From the IMG/VR virus record IMGVR_UViG_3300045952_000020, positions 1 to 20,293 of that record: 20,293 nt of DNA, one strand, 5' to 3'. The position numbers and the translations under genes were made by a program. This document shows positions 1,847 through 20,080 of the stretch, in pieces. The notes beneath the pieces were generated by a model. That model was not told the DNA's origin. It was given only the letters and a program-made list of their open reading frames with translations, and made no database searches. The DNA comes from a virus. Each line of letters begins with the position of its first letter. Position 1 is the first letter of the stretch.

Positions 1847-2746
1847 ATGGGAACCTTTCGTATAAGTAATTTTACTGCTGATGCTATTAGATTACTTTGG
1901 GTAGACCATAATTTTGGTTGGGATATTGAACCGCCCAATGCACATACTCCTTTTTTAAGTTATCAACCTAGTAGTAGTCCACCTTCTCCGGCTGGGGGAG
2001 AAGTGCATGTTCGTTTAAGTGCTAATTATGCAAGTTTGTATTTAGATGGTTCTTCTACTCCAACTGCTTTAGAAGATTTACCAGAAGATTTTGGAATTGA
2101 TACGATTACTTATGAGCAAACTCCTCCTTGGTTAACGACGGGAGTGTTACCTGGAATTACACCTAATATGCCTCTATGTAATGAGCCGGGAACTCCGGTT
2201 CTTAGAGGTGGTGGTTCTCAGTATTATTGGACAATTGAACCAGTTGGATTAGATGAGTATCAACTTCCTAGTTCTGGTCTAGTTCAATCTAATATATTAT
2301 TAGCTGACCCTGAATTGGGAGTTGGATATCCACCAGTTTTTACTAAATGGAATGGATTTCTTCAATCATTACTTCAACAAGGCACGCTTAGAGTAGTTTT
2401 TTCTAGAATGCCCGTTGCATTTGGGGCATATGAATTATATACATTTGTAGATTTAATAAATAGTGTAAATGAAGAAGGCTACTTAAATGTTGGTGAACTT
2501 TGGGGAATAGAAGGAACTTACGGTAGTTATCCGCCGCCTCCGAATCCAACTGTTTATATGGGTGGTGGATTAGATTTTGGAAGCGCACCTATAATTCAGA
2601 TTCTCTCTGATGCATCTGGAATTTACACATTAACTGCTGGATTACATAGAGACGAACTTTGGCAGCGAAGCGGAACTACAGCTACAGTAGTTAGTTTTGA
2701 AATTCCTCAGCCGTTCTTTAAGACAGGTTATATTGGTGGTCGCTAA
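1847..2746 (+). CDS. Hypothetical virion-module protein (299 aa)
   Basis: I do not recognise a named family. The protein is Pro-, Gly- and Tyr-rich, with a proline stretch near residues 42-50 and another at 229-233. A Gly-rich segment follows (VYMGGGLDFG, residues 236-245), then a strand-turn pattern SGIYTLTAGLHRDEL (257-271) and the C-terminal ending PFFKTGYIGGR. The composition suggests a beta-structured virion component rather than an enzyme. The start ATG is one base after the upstream stop, with GGAAG as ribosome binding site. Its own stop overlaps the next start (TAATG at 2744-2748), so it appears to be made together with the following 94-residue protein and may be its partner. Confidence 0.5.
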   Translation: MGTFRISNFTADAIRLLWVDHNFGWDIEPPNAHTPFLSYQPSSSPPSPAGGEVHVRLSANYASLYLDGSSTPTALEDLPEDFGIDTITYEQTPPWLTTGVLPGITPNMPLCNEPGTPVLRGGGSQYYWTIEPVGLDEYQLPSSGLVQSNILLADPELGVGYPPVFTKWNGFLQSLLQQGTLRVVFSRMPVAFGAYELYTFVDLINSVNEEGYLNVGELWGIEGTYGSYPPPPNPTVYMGGGLDFGSAPIIQILSDASGIYTLTAGLHRDELWQRSGTTATVVSFEIPQPFFKTGYIGGR

Positions 2747-5587: not shown

Positions 5588-7060
5588 ATGGATTATCCCT
5601 ATCCTGATGAACATACATTTTGGAAAGAATATCAACAGGCTGTAAAGGGTTGTTATAATGAGGCAGGAAGACAATTTCCTGACCCAAATGACCCCGATGC
5701 ATACATGTGGTTCTCGCGTTGCGGATATGATTCCCGCACAATGCCAGCTAATCAAGCAGCAGAAAAACATATCAAAGGATTACGAGAAGCATTAGGAATA
5801 TCTCCTATTCCTGAACCAGAACCAGAGCCGGAACCAGAACCGGGAGAAAAAGTAGTTAGACCTATTCAGGGTTATGTAAGAACTGAAGGCGGAAAATGGA
5901 GAGATGATTCTGGATTTCGTTCATTCCGAATCATGTCTTGGTTTCCTGCTTTAAGATGTTATCGAGATAATCCAACAGAAGTTAAGAAAGAGCTTGATAA
6001 CATTGCCTTGTATTGGCAAGGAATTCGAGTATTTTGGAATCTCGGTGTAGATTGGTGGGCAGGTTACGAAATCAACCCAAAAATGGGTGGTTTCGATATG
6101 TCATTTGTTGAATTTTTAAAGGAATGCCAAAAAAGAGGACTTCGTGTTTCTTTAACTTCGGGGGATATGCAAGTTCTTCAGCCGTCTGGTAGTGAAGATG
6201 CATGGCATGAACATATTGCAACTCTTGCTAAGACTGTTGACCAGATTACTGCATCATGGCATGGTGTTTGGAATGAAGGTTGGCAAAATACTACAAGAGA
6301 AAGAGCTAATATTGAAACTGCACGAAGAATCGCACAGAAAAGAATAGCTATTTATCCTTGGGGCGCGCACGGATTAACAGACCCCGCAGGATTTGATGAT
6401 AATGGCGACCCTGAAGACCCGCAAACATTAGCTACATGGTCACAACCACCAGCTAATTTTACTTTAGTTCATGGAACTAGAGTATTTCCTGATTCAATCC
6501 GGCGTGCATTTAATTTAATGTATGAAGGAACTTTCTTAGTTAATCAGGATGAGCCTGTAGGTCCGGGACCAGATGTATATCAGAGAGATGATGACCCGAG
6601 ACATCTTTTTGGTCTATATTGTATGCATGTAATCACTGGTCAAATGACTACATATTTTAGTGGTCATGGACTTAAATCTTGGAAACAGTCAGGAGATTTC
6701 TATAAGGATTGGGGATTCAAGGAACTGCCAATTTTATGGCAGCAAATGCAAATTCCTGAAGATATTTCTACATGGACAAAGAAGCCGGGACATCATGGAG
6801 ATGCGGCTATTTATCCAAGGGTATTTTCAAATAATGGTAGCGGTCCTGATAGATGTGACGGCTCACAAAATAGTAATTCAGCATGGGTTGTAGTATCAGG
6901 GGGCAGAGGAACTTGGGAAATGATTTCTCGTAGGAATGCTCATATTAAAGTATGGGCACACGATGGAATCAAATGGGAAGGTGATGTATCTGCTGGTCAA
7001 ATGTTCTATACAGCAGATGCAGCTTCAACGAAAGCATTAGTATTCAATTCACAGGCTTAG
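5588..7060 (+). CDS. Virion-associated glycoside-hydrolase-like protein with Pro-Glu linker
   Basis: 490 residues in two parts. The N-terminal domain (1-72) is Trp/Tyr-rich and may attach to the virion. It is followed by a PE repeat linker (75-86). The larger C-terminal part looks like a clan-A TIM barrel: an early strand ending IRVFWNLGVDWW (146-157), then GVWNEGW with E230 as candidate acid/base, and NQDEP with E322 as candidate nucleophile. Spacing of about 92 residues between the glutamates is reasonable for this fold. A beta-rich tail (about 405-490) could be a small C-terminal sheet domain. Its place in the tail gene block suggests a depolymerase acting on capsule, exopolysaccharide or wall glycan during entry. 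The ribosome binding site GGAGAG lies 6 bases before ATG. Substrate and activity are inferred. Confidence 0.6.
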   Translation: MDYPYPDEHTFWKEYQQAVKGCYNEAGRQFPDPNDPDAYMWFSRCGYDSRTMPANQAAEKHIKGLREALGISPIPEPEPEPEPEPGEKVVRPIQGYVRTEGGKWRDDSGFRSFRIMSWFPALRCYRDNPTEVKKELDNIALYWQGIRVFWNLGVDWWAGYEINPKMGGFDMSFVEFLKECQKRGLRVSLTSGDMQVLQPSGSEDAWHEHIATLAKTVDQITASWHGVWNEGWQNTTRERANIETARRIAQKRIAIYPWGAHGLTDPAGFDDNGDPEDPQTLATWSQPPANFTLVHGTRVFPDSIRRAFNLMYEGTFLVNQDEPVGPGPDVYQRDDDPRHLFGLYCMHVITGQMTTYFSGHGLKSWKQSGDFYKDWGFKELPILWQQMQIPEDISTWTKKPGHHGDAAIYPRVFSNNGSGPDRCDGSQNSNSAWVVVSGGRGTWEMISRRNAHIKVWAHDGIKWEGDVSAGQMFYTADAASTKALVFNSQA

Positions 7061-7970: not shown

Positions 7971-9599
7971 ATGGCCTTCCTTCCAAAATTTGCTGACAGA
8001 ACCGGCTATCGAGACGCTAATATTTATCAATTTGAGCGTCGTCGAGAAGAACCATATCGAGAAACATCTTCTGTTTCATGGGGACCATCTCCATTACAAC
8101 AGGGATTAAATAGTCGTGGAATGGTGGATAGAGTAGGTCCACAAAAAGCTGGTCCTGACCCTGCAAGTGGAATGAATCCTACTGCTGGATTACTTGGTAT
8201 TCAAAATACTACAGGTTTCTCTCAAGAAGCACCAAATGTAGTATATGATTATCGACCAGAAGAAGCTGCTAAAGATAGAAAATTACAAGCAAGAGAGCTT
8301 GATATTCGTGAAATGGCTGCGCGCGGTCAGCTTGAGAATAATGCAATTCTCAATCAGACTCGAATGATGAACGCATTAAGTGGACAAGAAAGAGCAGCTA
8401 TTCAACGTATACGAGCGGAAAATCCTAACATGGTTTTCCAGCAAACTCCAGAGGGAATCATTGCATTAGACCCAGCTACGGGTGCTGCAATGAATACTGG
8501 AATTGGAACTGGAAAAATGGGGAGGGAAGCTGAAATTAATCTACTTCAGGGTGGAAGAATGGCCCAAATTGGTGCTCAAAATCAGGGCCAAATGAATGTG
8601 CAAGGATTACGTAATACTGGAATGATGGATGTAGCAACTGCTAATAATGCCGCAGCATTAGAACGGCTTGGATACAGTAGAGATACTGCACTCCAATTAG
8701 CAATGCTTAATCAGCAAGGTGCTTTAAATCTTGCTCATTTTAATCAAGGCCAAGCAAATCTGCGGCAGCAATCTCAGCAAGATTATGATAAGAGCAAAAC
8801 AATTTTCCAAGCAGAACAAGGAGTTTATAAAACTCGAAATCAAGCAACTCCTGTAGATAGAGCATGGGAACTTTACAATACTAATCCAGTATTAAGACCA
8901 TTCCTGAAATTCTCAGCAGATGGGAAACATGTTCAAGTAGTGGAACCTGCTGAAAAGGAAGGATGGTTTGGTGGATTACAGGGTCATGACCCCAATACAC
9001 CTACTGGTGAACAATATCGAATGATTCAACAGGGAATGTATGGGGATGAAACACCAAATATGAATTGGCCCGGCGGGGGAGGAAATAGAGGTGGGACACA
9101 ATCTCCTACGTGGATTACTCCTGCTCCTACTTCTGATAATAATCCTCCTGCTATCAACACACCTCCAAGTGGGGCTATTAATCAGTTATCTGTAAAGCCT
9201 GAACAACAGGGATTACCATCAGGATTAGGATTAGGTGGAACTAGTCCTACTGGTGGATTCTTTAATTTAAGAAATCAAAATCAAGGACAAGGATTTAGTG
9301 CTGCACCGGGACAATATAATGCACAGCCCGGACAATATAATGCACCTGTTGGTGGTCAAACTCCGCCACAACAGGGAACTAATCCGCAGCAAAATGAACA
9401 ATTAAAACAGCAAGCATTAGCATTATATCAGCAAAAATATCCCGGTAGAACTCCTACTGAGGAAGACCTTGCATATGTAATGCAACAACTTCAAACTAAG
9501 CAGAGCACAGCTACTCCGGGTCAATTAAGTGCTGGCACAGTTATGGGTGCTCCCGCTGGAACTTTAAGTGGACCTAGTGCTGGAACTGTGAGGAGATAA
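7971..9599 (+). CDS. Gln/Asn-rich internal/ejection-type virion protein (542 aa)
   Basis: 542 residues. A charged N-terminus rich in Arg and Glu (20-33) is followed by a long helical, coiled-coil-like region (about 95-290) with many Gln, Asn, Ala and Met residues. A low-complexity Pro/Gly/Gln tail follows (about 365-542). The tail contains two adjacent PGQYNA units (446-458) and two SAGTV units (520-524, 536-540). No enzymatic motif is seen. Like the preceding gene, it resembles proteins stored in the capsid and expelled into the cell during DNA entry. The stop overlaps the start of the 1008-residue gene (TAATG). Function is inferred. Confidence 0.5.
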   Translation: MAFLPKFADRTGYRDANIYQFERRREEPYRETSSVSWGPSPLQQGLNSRGMVDRVGPQKAGPDPASGMNPTAGLLGIQNTTGFSQEAPNVVYDYRPEEAAKDRKLQARELDIREMAARGQLENNAILNQTRMMNALSGQERAAIQRIRAENPNMVFQQTPEGIIALDPATGAAMNTGIGTGKMGREAEINLLQGGRMAQIGAQNQGQMNVQGLRNTGMMDVATANNAAALERLGYSRDTALQLAMLNQQGALNLAHFNQGQANLRQQSQQDYDKSKTIFQAEQGVYKTRNQATPVDRAWELYNTNPVLRPFLKFSADGKHVQVVEPAEKEGWFGGLQGHDPNTPTGEQYRMIQQGMYGDETPNMNWPGGGGNRGGTQSPTWITPAPTSDNNPPAINTPPSGAINQLSVKPEQQGLPSGLGLGGTSPTGGFFNLRNQNQGQGFSAAPGQYNAQPGQYNAPVGGQTPPQQGTNPQQNEQLKQQALALYQQKYPGRTPTEEDLAYVMQQLQTKQSTATPGQLSAGTVMGAPAGTLSGPSAGTVRR

Positions 9600-12500
9600 T
9601 GTATCCTCCGTATAACAGACAACAAGAACTGGATGAATTCGGTGGAATTGATTGGTCAGGATTACCAAGTGACCAACAAAATATTCCTTCGTTTCCACAG
9701 TTTCCAGAGCCATATCCAGAACCGACAACGGATATGGATATTGATTGGTCTGGATTACCTAGTGAACAAATTCAAATAACTCCACAACAAGCACAACCGG
9801 GACCACCACCGCAAGAAGAATTTTTTCCAACTAGATTTAATAGTGAACCTACTGTAACTGATACGGCTCCGAATTGGTTACAAAAGTTTCGCACTCCATT
9901 AACAGACATTGGCAGGAGAGTTGCTTCGCGCGTTGAAGCTGCACCTAATCCTCATGCTGAATATCAGGATGAGGAAGGTAGAGCTATGGCTGAAATGGGG
10001 AAAGGTGCAATTGGTCTTTTAGGACATGGATTTGATGAAGCTACAGCGGCTATCAATATCCTTCCAATGGCTTTATTCGGAGCAGCTAATGCTCTTAAAT
10101 CTCCAGTATTAAATCTCTTAGGTAGAGCAGCTAGTATTCCTACTGCTGTATCTGGAATTGAGCATATAGCTAGTGGTAAGAACTGGCTAGATAAAGTAAT
10201 GGGCGTAGCTGAAACTGTAGGTGGTGCATTAGGAGCTAAGACAAAATTAAATCTTACACCGAAGCCAAATGTAGCACAGCAAGCTGAAGAAATTATTGCA
10301 TCTGCCCCAAGAATTCCTGAGACTAATTTACCGCAAAGTCAAAAGGAAGCTATTGCTGAAGCTCTGTTCATGTCCGATGAGGAATATGACCAGATGTATA
10401 ATAAGTTAACGGAATATCAGAATAGAATGCGCGCTGGAACTCTTAGCGCATCAGAAATTGAAGAAGCCAAGCGAATTAATAAAATAGTTCGCGCGCATCC
10501 TAATTTTGGTAGGCCAATTCCTACACCAGAATTACCTGATATTCCAATTCCTGCATCAGAAATTCCACCTGAAGGTGTGCCTACTGCATCTGGTTTACCT
10601 TTGATGCCAGAGGAACCATTAGCACAATCAATTTCTATTCCACATCCGAATAGGCCAAATTTTCCGGATTATTCTCCTAAGACGGAAATGATGGCACGTC
10701 AATTCTTAAATGCAGTAGGAGTTAAACTTAAGGGCAATCCTTCAAATAAACAGATAATTGATGCTGCCCGATATGCAGCAGAACAAAAATATCCAAGCAC
10801 TAAAAAAGCAGTAGAAATGGGAACTGGTGGGTATATTCCGGGTTCTAAAACTCCGGAACAAGTTCCGTTTGGCAGGCAACAGCAACCAGTATCTGAAGGA
10901 TTTACTGCGCAACAGCAAGATATGTTTGCGCGTCAGCCTACTGGTGAAATTCCACCTAGCGGACCATTAACTCCTAGGGGAACTGGTCCTGATGATTTAA
11001 CTATTCCACCGGGAATGAATCGTGCTCAACCTAGTCCTGTAGCTCAGGCTGTAGATGCTCACTATGGGGAATTATTTGGAGATATTGAACGTAAATTAGA
11101 TGCGAATGGTAAACCAATTGAACGTCCTAAGATGATGGAAGTTGGGAAAGGTGAGTTTGTTAACTCAGACTACCCCGATTTTATTCTTGATTCTGATGGT
11201 AATGTTCTTCGCACAGTTTCTGGTTTACCTATCAATACACCTGAAGTTGTGAAAAGAAGTTTATGGAAAACTGCCGCTAATACTCCACGTGCAATTCAAG
11301 CATCTATGGATTTATCTTTCCCATTAAGACAGGGAATTGGATTGATTCATAAACCTGCTTGGTGGAAAGCATGGGGAGGAATGGTAAAATCCTTTGGTTC
11401 TGATAAAGCATTCAAAGGAGTAATGGATTCTATTATGGATAGGGCTAACTATAAGCCCAATATTCGATATCAAAAATTCAATCCAACTAGTAAGAAAATG
11501 GAACCCACTTCATTCGCGGAGTGGTCTGGATTAGCTATTACTGATATGACTAATGCCGCTGAAATGGAACATATGCGGTCATTAGCTGAAAGCTGGCCCG
11601 GAGTTAAGCATAGCAATAGAGCATATACTGCATTTGCTAATAAACTCCGAGCAGATGTATTTGATGATTTGGTAAATCAGTTTACCAAGGCAGGAATGGA
11701 CCCTAGAAATAACAGGGAATTAGCAAAAGAACTTGCGGAGTTTGTAAATACAGCTTCAGGTAGGGGTTCTATTGAAAAATTAGAAAAGCATATGGATGCT
11801 CTTAGCACGGGCTTCTTTAGTCCTAGATTGCAGATTGCGCGTGCTAAGATGGGATTAAGAGGAGCTTCAGGAATAGCTCATGGAGCTATGGATTTAGGTA
11901 GGATTGCAAAGAATGATGGGTTCAGCGCATTAGCTGACCCTAAAACTTATGCAATGATGAAGCCAGATGTAAGACGAGAATATATGAAATCCATGTTGGC
12001 ATTAGCCGGTGCATGGGGAAGTATGACTACGTTCGCTTCCATGTTACCGGGAGTATCTACGTCATTAGATACAACTAATCCTGACTTTGGAAAGATTAAG
12101 ATAGGAGATACAAGGATTGATTTAGGTGGGGGATTCCAGCAGTTCCTTGTCTTTGCTATGAAGTCTTTAAGACAGAGAGCTACTCGCACTAGTGAGCCGG
12201 ATAATCCGAGATATTTTGATGATGCTTCAAGTGCATATGACCCAACGTGGGGAAAAGAAATTGGAAACTTTGCTTATAGCAAGGCTTCTCCATTAGGTAG
12301 GCTTGCTGTTGATTTGGCTATGAGAACTCAAGGAAGGCCATTTGATACAGCAGATGAACTTGCTAGATTGGGAACACCAATCATTGCTCAAGATTTATTT
12401 GAAGTTCTGATGAATGAAGGAATAGACCCAGAAATGCTTGGTGCGATTCCTGAATTTATTGGAGCAGGTGTGCAAACTTATGGCGGAAAGAAACAACTCT

Positions 12501-12625
12501 TTGATGAGGGTAGTCAATATGATAGGCGAATGCTAGGTCCAAACCTTGGTCAGAACCTAGCATGGCCCCGTAAACGCGGAATGTTCGAGGGAGGAACATT
12601 CAGTAGTGGTCCGTTTGGACGTTAG
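9599..12625 (+). CDS. Large late protein with LPD38-like region, probable ejected protein
   Basis: 1008 residues. The N-terminus has two copies of DWSGLPS[DE]Q (18-26 and 49-57) in a Pro-rich disordered stretch. A hydrophobic Ala/Gly-rich segment lies at about 136-213, and another Pro-rich linker at about 300-360 and 410-480. The central region 565-755 carries DLSFPLRQG, SNRAYTAFANKLRADVFD, FVNTASGRGS and GFFSPRLQIAR. This series I recognise from the large polyvalent protein-associated domain LPD38 of phage and mobile-element giant proteins. A further hydrophobic stretch (about 796-818) and an amphipathic C-terminus follow. LPD38 has no defined activity that I know of; such proteins are thought to enter the host with the DNA. 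Its stop interlocks with a convergent gene. Confidence 0.6.
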   Translation: MYPPYNRQQELDEFGGIDWSGLPSDQQNIPSFPQFPEPYPEPTTDMDIDWSGLPSEQIQITPQQAQPGPPPQEEFFPTRFNSEPTVTDTAPNWLQKFRTPLTDIGRRVASRVEAAPNPHAEYQDEEGRAMAEMGKGAIGLLGHGFDEATAAINILPMALFGAANALKSPVLNLLGRAASIPTAVSGIEHIASGKNWLDKVMGVAETVGGALGAKTKLNLTPKPNVAQQAEEIIASAPRIPETNLPQSQKEAIAEALFMSDEEYDQMYNKLTEYQNRMRAGTLSASEIEEAKRINKIVRAHPNFGRPIPTPELPDIPIPASEIPPEGVPTASGLPLMPEEPLAQSISIPHPNRPNFPDYSPKTEMMARQFLNAVGVKLKGNPSNKQIIDAARYAAEQKYPSTKKAVEMGTGGYIPGSKTPEQVPFGRQQQPVSEGFTAQQQDMFARQPTGEIPPSGPLTPRGTGPDDLTIPPGMNRAQPSPVAQAVDAHYGELFGDIERKLDANGKPIERPKMMEVGKGEFVNSDYPDFILDSDGNVLRTVSGLPINTPEVVKRSLWKTAANTPRAIQASMDLSFPLRQGIGLIHKPAWWKAWGGMVKSFGSDKAFKGVMDSIMDRANYKPNIRYQKFNPTSKKMEPTSFAEWSGLAITDMTNAAEMEHMRSLAESWPGVKHSNRAYTAFANKLRADVFDDLVNQFTKAGMDPRNNRELAKELAEFVNTASGRGSIEKLEKHMDALSTGFFSPRLQIARAKMGLRGASGIAHGAMDLGRIAKNDGFSALADPKTYAMMKPDVRREYMKSMLALAGAWGSMTTFASMLPGVSTSLDTTNPDFGKIKIGDTRIDLGGGFQQFLVFAMKSLRQRATRTSEPDNPRYFDDASSAYDPTWGKEIGNFAYSKASPLGRLAVDLAMRTQGRPFDTADELARLGTPIIAQDLFEVLMNEGIDPEMLGAIPEFIGAGVQTYGGKKQLFDEGSQYDRRMLGPNLGQNLAWPRKRGMFEGGTFSSGPFGR

Positions 12626-17845: not shown

Positions 17846-18017
17846 CTACGTATTCCGCGAGGTTAAATGATTTTGTTAAGTCGATTACCACATCAGCTTC
17901 GCTAATAATCGCACTTATCCTACGTTCAGCCATTGGGCTGGACTTAGGAAGAAGATTTGCTAATCTTTTTACTGTTTCTGCATGTTCAATGATGCTATCC
18001 AGTTTGTTCTTGTTCAT
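17817..18017 (-). CDS. Hypothetical small helical protein (66 aa)
   Basis: I choose ATG at 18017, with GAGG seven bases upstream (GAGGCGTATAATG); the frame is open to 18068 but that would overlap the cold-shock gene much further. The product starts MNKNKLDSIIEHAETVKRL and appears to be two helices joined by a Pro/Ser turn (LPKSSP), with a basic end GPRK. No family is recognised. It overlaps the cold-shock gene by 23 bases and the polymerase by 29, so it is translationally linked to both. Confidence 0.45.
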   Translation of the reverse strand: MNKNKLDSIIEHAETVKRLANLLPKSSPMAERRISAIISEADVVIDLTKSFNLAEYVDGLRKGPRK

Positions 18018-18249
18018 TATACGCCTCAATATTAATAGCCTTCCAGCCCTTCTCGCGCTTAAGAGCATTGAATTTTACAACATCATTCTTTTGCAGAGTT
18101 TTGAAATTCAGATTATTGTGAAGTCCAGTCCAATGGAAATAGACTTTACTGAATTCAATCTCATGCGAATTAATATATCCCCAACCCTTCGGATGTAGGT
18201 AAATTATCTTTCCGGTTATGGCTTTCTTATACTCTTTCTGCTGTTCCAT
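17995..18249 (-). CDS. Cold-shock-domain nucleic-acid-binding protein
   Basis: 84 residues. The sequence from about 11 to 76 fits a single cold-shock domain (OB fold): G-KIIYLHP, then KGWGYI (21-26) in the RNP1 place, VYFHW (36-40) in the RNP2 place, FKTLQKNDVVKF (49-60) and a final strand KGWKAINIEAY. Cold-shock proteins bind single-stranded RNA or DNA, melt structure and can act as RNA chaperones or antiterminators. The phage copy is diverged from the host type (KGFGFI, VFVHF) but keeps the aromatic residues expected for base stacking. It lies between the acidic gene and the polymerase, so a role in replication or in reading structured phage RNA is plausible. AGGT ribosome binding site 8 bases before ATG. 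Confidence 0.7.
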   Translation of the reverse strand: MEQQKEYKKAITGKIIYLHPKGWGYINSHEIEFSKVYFHWTGLHNNLNFKTLQKNDVVKFNALKREKGWKAINIEAYNEQEQTG

Positions 18250-18303: not shown

Positions 18304-18453
18304 TTACTCGGTTGACTCGGATTCATCATCCTCGTCATCATCGTCATCGTCTTCATCGGTAGCGTCGATTTCCTCTGGTGTATCCTCATCTTCAACAGCA
18401 TCAGAGGAATCATCATCAGGGTCCACGTATTCCTTATCCTTGGGGTCAGTCAT
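18304..18453 (-). CDS. Hyperacidic mini-protein (49 aa)
   Basis: Read directly from the - strand: ATG at 18453 to TAA at 18306-18304, 49 residues. More than half of them are Asp or Glu, including a run of six Asp at about residues 35-40, with only two Lys (both near the start) and no Arg. The ribosome binding site AAGGAG lies eight to nine bases before ATG, stronger than that of most neighbours, which supports translation. It is 32 bases after the stop of the ssDNA-binding candidate, in a different frame. Possible roles are a DNA mimic, an electrostatic partner of DNA-binding proteins, or an acidic tail acting in trans; none is shown. Confidence 0.6.
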   Translation of the reverse strand: MTDPKDKEYVDPDDDSSDAVEDEDTPEEIDATDEDDDDDDEDDESESTE

Positions 18454-18485: not shown

Positions 18486-18890
18486 CTACCCCTGATTGGG
18501 ATAGCGGTAACGGTGATTAACCCTGTTGATGAGACGCCCTTGCCACTCAGAGTTTTCGATAAGCATATCGACTTCCTTACCCTTAGTGGCTTCCAAATCG
18601 TAACGTTCATTCGGAGTGAGTTTTGCATCAGGACCAATGAGAGCCTTGAAAAGACCCTGCATAAATCCCGGTGCTTTGCTGTTAAAGTTCCATACAATAA
18701 CAGCACCCGCGAAATCAACAGCACCATCGTTAGCGTTACAGATAACAGTTCCTTCCATAACGTAGTTGATGGACTGCTTATCCTTACTTTCCTGTGGTGT
18801 CACGTCATCGATTCTGACGCGATACCAATCAGGAGAAACAAGAATCCCACGGGCTAAGTCTCTTTCCGAAAATTGAACGTGAATCGCCAT
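18486..18890 (-). CDS. DUF669-like single-stranded DNA-binding protein candidate
   Basis: 134 residues. The pattern GILVSPDWYRVRIDDV, then SKDKQSINYVMEGTV, FKALIG, and a late KGKEVDMLIENSEWQGRLINRVNHRYRYP resembles phage DUF669-type proteins, which are considered ssDNA-binding proteins with an OB-like fold. The Trp and Tyr residues in the strands would suit base stacking. Unlike many SSBs, it ends in a neutral to basic tail (YRYPNQG) without acidic residues. It is the first gene after the structured intergenic region, with AGGAT about nine bases before ATG. It lies next to a Sak4-like ATPase and upstream of the polymerase, which fits a replication/recombination role. The family call is by eye and moderate. 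Confidence 0.5.
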   Translation of the reverse strand: MAIHVQFSERDLARGILVSPDWYRVRIDDVTPQESKDKQSINYVMEGTVICNANDGAVDFAGAVIVWNFNSKAPGFMQGLFKALIGPDAKLTPNERYDLEATKGKEVDMLIENSEWQGRLINRVNHRYRYPNQG

Positions 18891-19025: not shown

Positions 19026-19250
19026 TTATTCCTCAATAGGATACTCAGAACTAATGAGGACATTAATCTGCATCATAGACTCATGCAATCTACGAATAGC
19101 AAGAGTCCTTTCAGCAGAAGGTTTAACACCATTCATGATATCGAAGGCAAGTTTCTTATACTTGTCTCGAAAAATTTTCATTCTAAGTTTGCCATCAGCA
19201 TCTAACTGATGACTAGAGAATAGAGATTCTATTTCCTCGAATGACATCAT
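19026..19250 (-). CDS. Acb2-family anti-CBASS cyclic-nucleotide sponge (probable)
   Basis: 74 residues, a helical hairpin without cysteines. The order I-E-S-LF-S-S-H (7-14), a basic helix with R23, K25 and R28, then KPSAERTLAIRRLHESMMQIN (43-63) matches by eye the small phage family typified by Acb2, whose common form ends in a P-S-x-E-R, LA, L-x-E-x-x-M-x-x-N pattern. Acb2 proteins assemble as hexamers and sequester cyclic di- and trinucleotides, which blocks CBASS and related signalling defences. The usual aromatic residue before the early His (FxYH) is Ser here, so ligand choice may differ. The start overlaps the Sak4-like ATPase stop (ATGA). Family call is by motif only; the anti-defence role is inferred from it. 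Confidence 0.6.
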   Translation of the reverse strand: MMSFEEIESLFSSHQLDADGKLRMKIFRDKYKKLAFDIMNGVKPSAERTLAIRRLHESMMQINVLISSEYPIEE

Positions 19251-20080
19251 ACTTTCACCACCTGAATATTCTGACCTTTAATCTTGTCAATCGCAGGCTT
19301 GAGGAAATCTGTGTATAGTGGTTTGTCATCGAATGTGATGCGTGTTGGCAGGTCTAAACTTGTGCGCGCAAAATCATCGCCGGTATTCTCAGTGATAAGA
19401 GAATACTGACCCGGCACAGATGCGCTAATTGATTTGATGATATCGAAGTGATAAACTTCTGAACAATAACCGGGCATCTTTGCAGCAGTTCGTTTGCCAG
19501 CAGTTACAATTGTTCGAGAAGTGGAAGTCTTACCTTGACTATCTTTATTGGTGACTTCCATTACGTGGGCTATGATGATAACATTCAACTTGTGATAAGA
19601 TTGAATGTCTTTGAGGAGGGCTATCATTTCATTTGCTGCTGAAGTTTCAGCATTATAATCTTCAAGTTCATTTACTGGAATGCCCGCAATAAATCTACCG
19701 GCTGCGGCACCAGAACCTCTAGTTACGCCGCCCTTAGCTTTCAAAGTTTGGCGTAACGTCATATCCATAGCAGAAGTAAAACTATCAACGATGATAGTCT
19801 CATACTTCCGCCCATCTGGATGCTTACACGTAGTAGTAAAGAGTTCTAATTTCTTACGAGCACCTTCCCAATCTGCATAGGTATCGTATACTACATCTTT
19901 GGGATTGATACCCCATTTGAGCATGGGAACTACCAATGAACCAAGTTGCATTTTTGCATCCCAATCAAACCAATATTGAGGTTTAGGATAACTCAGAGCT
20001 TGCGTAGATTTTCGCGTGCCCGGTTCACCCTTAAACATATAGAACTGATATGTTGGGTCAAACGTTTCAAGTGTTGGCAT
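19247..20080 (-). CDS. Sak4-like RecA-superfamily ATPase
   Basis: 277 residues. Walker A GEPGTRKS (18-25) follows a short N-terminal strand, and IIVDS (96-100) with D99 is Walker B. The strand VIIIAHV ending with H172 sits where RecA-like phage ATPases have their sensor residue. A loop rich in Gly, Ala and Arg (117-130) and a second polar loop (177-198) could contact DNA. The size, the DWDAK segment after Walker A and the neighbours (small gene upstream, ssDNA-binding candidate nearby) fit the Sak4/AAA_24 group of phage recombination ATPases, which cooperate with SSB in strand annealing or exchange. ATG at 20080 overlaps the preceding gene by 14 bases; the ribosome binding site (CAGGTT) is weak, so coupling is likely. 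Confidence 0.7.
   Translation of the reverse strand: MPTLETFDPTYQFYMFKGEPGTRKSTQALSYPKPQYWFDWDAKMQLGSLVVPMLKWGINPKDVVYDTYADWEGARKKLELFTTTCKHPDGRKYETIIVDSFTSAMDMTLRQTLKAKGGVTRGSGAAAGRFIAGIPVNELEDYNAETSAANEMIALLKDIQSYHKLNVIIIAHVMEVTNKDSQGKTSTSRTIVTAGKRTAAKMPGYCSEVYHFDIIKSISASVPGQYSLITENTGDDFARTSLDLPTRITFDDKPLYTDFLKPAIDKIKGQNIQVVKV

Follow-up and report, generated by a model that had tools for sequence, protein, structure and literature searches.

The experimentally established Acb2 proteins T4 Vs.4 (PDB 7uq2) and PaP2 p26 (PDB 8h2j) are nucleotide sponges which score 71 and 66 bits, respectively, with the PF24729 (Acb2/Tad1 hairpin) profile. When cGAMP is bound by T4 Vs.4, its purine bases are stacked against Y8 and F82, with H11, K23, and R79 as further contacts; binding is cut more than 5-fold by the Y8A substitution and more than 25-fold by F82A (PMC10097602). 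The protein neither oligomerises nor binds once the interface residues L29, A66, A73, and A77 are mutated, and phages sensitised to CBASS yielded A77I among other mutations (PMC10097602). The dinucleotide and trinucleotide pockets of Acb2 are mutually independent (PMC12043709).

The stacking tyrosine has been lost in nature. Panoptes is a defence which fires when a phage sponge takes away a decoy cyclic nucleotide, and phage T2 is not restricted by it; the authors suggested that the altered Acb2 of T2 is selectively impaired at its site for dinucleotides (PMC12657218). T2 Vs.4 starts with LKILRDKPHT as against MIEDIKGYKPHT in T4, which places Asp at Tyr8. Likewise, T4 Acb2 carrying Y8A fails to trigger Panoptes, and the structure 9ptq has Thr at the Tyr position. 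The residue details used here were drawn from PMC10097602, PMC12657218, and PMC12657230.

Many phages that are unrelated to one another have short Acb2/Tad1-hairpin proteins, which are mostly recorded as ‘hypothetical protein’ or, in Paenibacillus and Brevibacillus phages, under a phosphomannomutase label. No published ligand for them was found in the literature examined.

A hairpin gene in a phage replication operon

The window, that is, the whole 20,293-nucleotide stretch of viral DNA analysed here, carries such a gene on its minus strand within the following run.

19247 to 20080, minus strand: RecA-like, Sak4-like annealing ATPase, upstream of the hairpin gene (AAA_24, E 4e-13; phrog_124, E 1.5e-19)
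19026 to 19250, minus strand: 74-aa Acb2/Tad1-hairpin-family protein (open reading frame, family HMM, hhalign, syntenic orthologs)
18486 to 18890, minus strand: ssDNA-binding protein (SSB) candidate, downstream of the hairpin gene (phrog_378, E 0.001)
17995 to 18249, minus strand: cold-shock-domain protein in the replication operon (PF00313, E 1e-9; present in both relatives)

The open reading frame call and the AAA_24, phrog_124, and phrog_378 matches confirm the arrangement described by an earlier sequence-only reading, which had placed a 74-residue product between a RecA-like ATPase and an ssDNA-binding candidate. Residues 10-14 of this product are LFSSH and residues 45-63 are SAERTLAIRRLHESMMQIN. 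Its ATG shares a 4-nt overlap with the stop codon of the Sak4-like ATPase gene, and AGGTGG lies immediately 5' of the ATG. The SSB candidate is followed on the same strand by the cold-shock-domain gene, a DNA-polymerase-like gene (phrog_17, E 3e-46), and a primase-like gene (phrog_14296, E 6e-19). The hairpin gene is probably translated together with the phage replication operon.

Two IMG/VR contigs, L001 and L004, carry an ortholog of the hairpin gene in the same operon with 70% and 51% identity, and further IMG/VR scans for additional orthologs gave only these two again. Compared with the L001 ortholog, the hairpin gene has a dN of 0.25 and a dS of 1.6, giving a dN/dS of ~0.15, a rough figure since dS is saturated or almost so in several other comparisons; the values are close to those of the Sak4 gene against L001 (dN 0.21, dS 1.4). 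Judged from these coding sequences, the hairpin gene is maintained under constraint. The presence of orthologs in the same operon of two related contigs, together with this dN/dS, shows that the open reading frame is real and not a chance one.

A gene of 110-124 aa with only marginal PHROG matches lies between the Sak4 and hairpin genes in L001 (742-1116, plus strand) and L004 (4309-4641, plus strand) and is absent in the window. Besides, a short, extremely acidic separate open reading frame adjoins the SSB gene in all four of the phages below; it is 49-68 aa long, and 27-29 residues are Asp/Glu in the three where these were counted.

Window 18304 to 18453, minus strand: acidic open reading frame beside (downstream of) the SSB gene
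L001 about 2290 to 2435, plus strand: acidic open reading frame beside (downstream of) the SSB gene
L004 5509 to 5682, plus strand: acidic open reading frame beside (downstream of) the SSB gene
L005 4785 to 4991, plus strand: acidic open reading frame upstream of the SSB gene

The SSB of these phages has no acidic C-terminal tail, and the acidic frame looks like such a tail encoded as its own gene. Elsewhere in the window, two predicted proteins of 1008 aa (9599-12625, plus strand) and 490 aa (5588-7060, plus strand) had no convincing PHROG match.

Family membership and predicted fold

With PF24729 the window protein scores 17.5 bits, and the scores of all three orthologs (17.5, 17.6, and 18.4) lie under the cut-off of 27; phrog_1454 matches the three at E 5e-5, 0.0016, and 2e-5. 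An independent test was made with an HMM from 13 short phage proteins, excluding the lineage itself, and those of the 13 that were scanned exceed the Pfam cut-off. Some of these proteins were recruited via similarity to the lineage, so that the comparison is not wholly blind, but by their own Pfam scores they are Acb2/Tad1-hairpin proteins. This HMM gave the window protein 48.8 bits (E 1e-12); the best of 5,000 shuffles of the same protein reached 11.9 bits, and none of the other open frames of the window exceeded 4.4 bits. These shuffle and six-frame controls rule out a chance hairpin. In a profile-profile comparison, hhalign aligned 69 columns without a gap at a probability of 98.6% (E 9e-16), and a PDB search with the family profile found one significant match, 9ptq, ‘Acb2 homolog 43’ (E 9e-5), an entry with six chains. 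NCBIfam, PADLOC, and a single-sequence PDB search yielded nothing useful for the hairpin protein.

The window protein almost certainly belongs to the Acb2/Tad1 hairpin family, as a short, divergent member. The hairpin-family match proposed by the sequence-only reading is thereby borne out by the 13-member HMM and hhalign, the Pfam score alone being sub-threshold. The label ‘Acb2-type’ stands in part: it holds for the hairpin family, and the strict marks of Acb2, namely the stacking Tyr and most of the T4 cGAMP contacts, are missing.

An AlphaFold2 model from 14 sequences (pLDDT 85.9), which replaced an earlier model from 3 sequences (pLDDT 68), places helices at residues 4-10, 18-41, and 46-69. 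The predicted fold has the layout of the Acb2 protomer, in which a short helix at the N-terminus leads into a long hairpin of two helices. Among viral structures, the top matches are almost all titled Acb2/Tad1 hairpin domain-containing protein (best Foldseek E 0.03, probability 1.00). Searches of PDB structures gave generic two-helix proteins only, with 9ptq and 7uq2 not among the matches listed; the fold is so simple that such matches decide nothing.

T4 and PaP2 Acb2 share with the window protein the PF24729 domain, the short N-helix with a two-helix hairpin, a basic residue at the Lys23 position, and an early or replication-side gene; the window protein is ~20 residues shorter in its helices and loop. 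The short phage hairpin proteins (those of Halcyone, Jenst, Tunturi_1, and others; phrog_1454) resemble it in length, fold, and ~69 gapless columns, and their genes also often lie in replication or recombination modules. They carry F-x-Y-H-x-P and A-N-A-S-I; in the window lineage, the His is followed by L-x-D and the second motif reads I/L-N-V/I-L-I. Tad1 (PDB 8kbb) contains the hairpin as its C-terminal domain by Pfam definition, with a non-significant profile match (E 0.82), and differs in having an N-terminal beta-sheet (PMC12043709); no such domain is found in the 74-aa model, which is all-helical without strands.

Small proteins of N4-like roseophages (L007 3962-4192 and L009 3004-3204) match phrog_1454 and not PF24729, with the motif F-R-Y followed by L-A-V-F-A-A-V-E-A. 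They may represent one more remote branch of the family, and they were excluded from the family counts.

Pocket and interface residues

Three positions of the window protein bear on comparison with T4 Acb2.

19212 to 19214, minus strand: codon AGT, Ser13, at the dinucleotide-stacking Tyr8 position of T4 Acb2 (alignment, codon check, PMC10097602)
19167 to 19169, minus strand: Arg28, at the Lys23 position of T4 Acb2, basic and contacting cGAMP (alignment, PMC10097602)
19065 to 19067, minus strand: Ile62, at the Ala77 position of T4 Acb2, in the hexamer interface (alignment, PMC10097602)

In the alignment, the T4 contacts Y8, H11, K23, R79, and F82 correspond to S13, L16, R28, V64, and S67 of the window protein. 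Only the basic residue (R28) is kept, and this position is basic in every relative examined. The replacement by Ser of the Tyr that usually precedes the early His, pointed out by the sequence-only reading, is true: outside the lineage the position is Tyr in 20 of 22 relatives, His in one, and Thr in one, proportions which are descriptive only, since the 22 had been gathered for their similarity and, in some cases, through patterns containing the motif. Both orthologs also keep Tyr, which leaves the window as the only one of the three with Ser. Its codon there is AGT, two base changes away from the TAT/TAC of the orthologs, hence a single miscalled base cannot account for Ser13 and sequencing error is an unlikely cause. 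In Arthrobacter phage Talia1610 (L038 3001-3231), the family Tyr is likewise naturally replaced, with F-D-H-H instead of F-x-Y-H.

The short branch as a whole lacks most of the T4 dinucleotide contacts, except the basic residue and the Tyr, and the ligand is therefore not transferable from T4. The 9ptq protein is similarly a short form (76 aa) without the Tyr; unlike the window protein, it keeps the interface Ala and has Lys at the T4 Arg79 position. T2 Vs.4 shares with the window protein the replacement of the position-8 Tyr and differs in being a long form, otherwise nearly identical to T4 Vs.4, with the interface Ala retained.

The second substitution, in the interface, had gone unmentioned in the sequence-only reading. 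The T4 positions L29, A66, A73, and A77 align with L34, A51, S58, and I62; two are kept, one is exchanged small for small, and one has changed from Ala to Ile. At this last position 22 of 22 relatives and T4 Acb2 have Ala, as against Ile in two of the three orthologs (the window protein included) and Leu in the third. Since the change to Ile or Leu is common to all three orthologs, it is old.

The operon offers a clean natural comparison, since orthologs that have the stacking Tyr and one that lacks it occupy the same site, in addition to the older interface change. With it, one can test whether phages retune their sponges so as to avoid dinucleotides, a proposal made for T2 facing Panoptes (PMC12657218).

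Possible roles of the hairpin protein

The protein is, with modest confidence, a divergent short nucleotide-sponge homolog, and its ligand and assembly would probably differ from those of T4 Acb2. We infer that it may oligomerise, bind a nucleotide of the kind proposed below, and have an anti-defence function. Copies would assemble through the long helices and form pockets between subunits, and these pockets would hold a host-made signal nucleotide and thereby keep a cell-suicide defence from firing. With no stacking Tyr at the T4 Y8 position, cyclic dinucleotides would be bound more weakly or in another way, the ligand being more likely a cyclic trinucleotide or another nucleotide, and Ile at the A77 position (Ile/Leu in the lineage) would lead to a repacked or different assembly. 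A sponge is favoured by the HMM, hhalign, and 9ptq matches, the characterised Acb2 proteins in the same Pfam family, the model, the retained basic residue, and the constraint on the gene; moreover, the natural loss of Tyr in T2 Acb2 and the Thr of 9ptq make a sponge without Tyr plausible. Against it stand the retention of the basic residue alone among the T4 contacts, the Ile/Leu at the A77 position, the absence of a host or host defence system from the results of the genome scans, and the frequent location of family members in replication modules, which would fit an accessory role too. Anti-CBASS activity is at most putative for the window protein, which is of the short (~70 aa) branch, lacks most of the T4 cGAMP contacts, and has Ile at a hexamer-interface Ala of T4.

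A more specific form of the sponge reading extends the T2/Panoptes precedent to the window protein by inference. The Tyr would have been removed, independently of T2, and the interface repacked, in favour of a different immune nucleotide or of countering CBASS without triggering defences that rely on decoys, such as Panoptes. Such retuning is conceivable and is regarded as rather unlikely.

Also rather unlikely is an accessory role in replication or recombination, wherein the helical hairpin would bind SSB, the Sak4-like ATPase, or DNA, and the fold would serve protein contacts and not nucleotide capture. The hairpin gene is conserved between the Sak4 and SSB genes in three phages, the T4 nucleotide contacts are poorly kept, and distant relatives occupy comparable sites in unrelated phages. 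For example, Paenibacillus phage Halcyone has it two genes past SSB, amid genes for helicase, primase, and Pol I; in Lactococcus phage 1706 the gene immediately before it encodes an exonuclease, and the same run includes annealing protein, helicase, and endonuclease; in Jenst it is several genes past UvsX and a Holliday junction resolvase; and in KimJongPhill it adjoins RNase H. However, the characterised members of T4 and PaP2 are sponges, and other relatives adjoin unrelated genes, e.g., the portal gene. As PaP2 acb2, a sponge, is itself a few genes away from primase and Pol I, genome position does not discriminate between the two roles. Early operons suit a counter-defence protein, and the same facts would fit an accessory role. 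The sequence-only reading had treated the gene as hidden in the replication operon, outside an anti-defence island; the location is ordinary, for several phages of unrelated kinds have relatives of the gene in modules for replication or recombination.

A conventional Acb2, in which a T4-like hexamer sequesters cyclic dinucleotides such as 3'3'-cGAMP while other residues compensate for the Tyr and the Ile is accommodated, is less probable still. It agrees with hairpin family membership and with the Tyr kept in both orthologs, but the equivalents of F82, R79, and H11 are also missing and Ile62 matches the A77I mutation of T4. That the gene is a decaying, no longer functional Acb2, as substitution at two positions critical in T4 Acb2 might suggest, is very improbable given an intact open reading frame with a coupled start, its retention by three phages that have diverged from one another, with protein identity slightly under that of the replication genes, the low dN/dS against the close ortholog, and an Ile/Leu that is old in all three.

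As regards the host, named genomes were scanned with both the hairpin family and the polymerase; nothing closely related turned up, the nearest being polymerases of Endozoicomonas at ~23% identity, and the gene is accordingly assigned to no host and tied to no CBASS or Thoeris system. In many Paenibacillus and Brevibacillus phage records, ‘(putative) phosphomannomutase’ is a propagated misannotation of ~70-aa hairpin proteins, as in the following two.

L033 3495 to 3710 (Paenibacillus phage Halcyone): hairpin gene mislabelled phosphomannomutase
L008 2992 to 3198 (Brevibacillus phage Jenst): hairpin gene mislabelled phosphomannomutase
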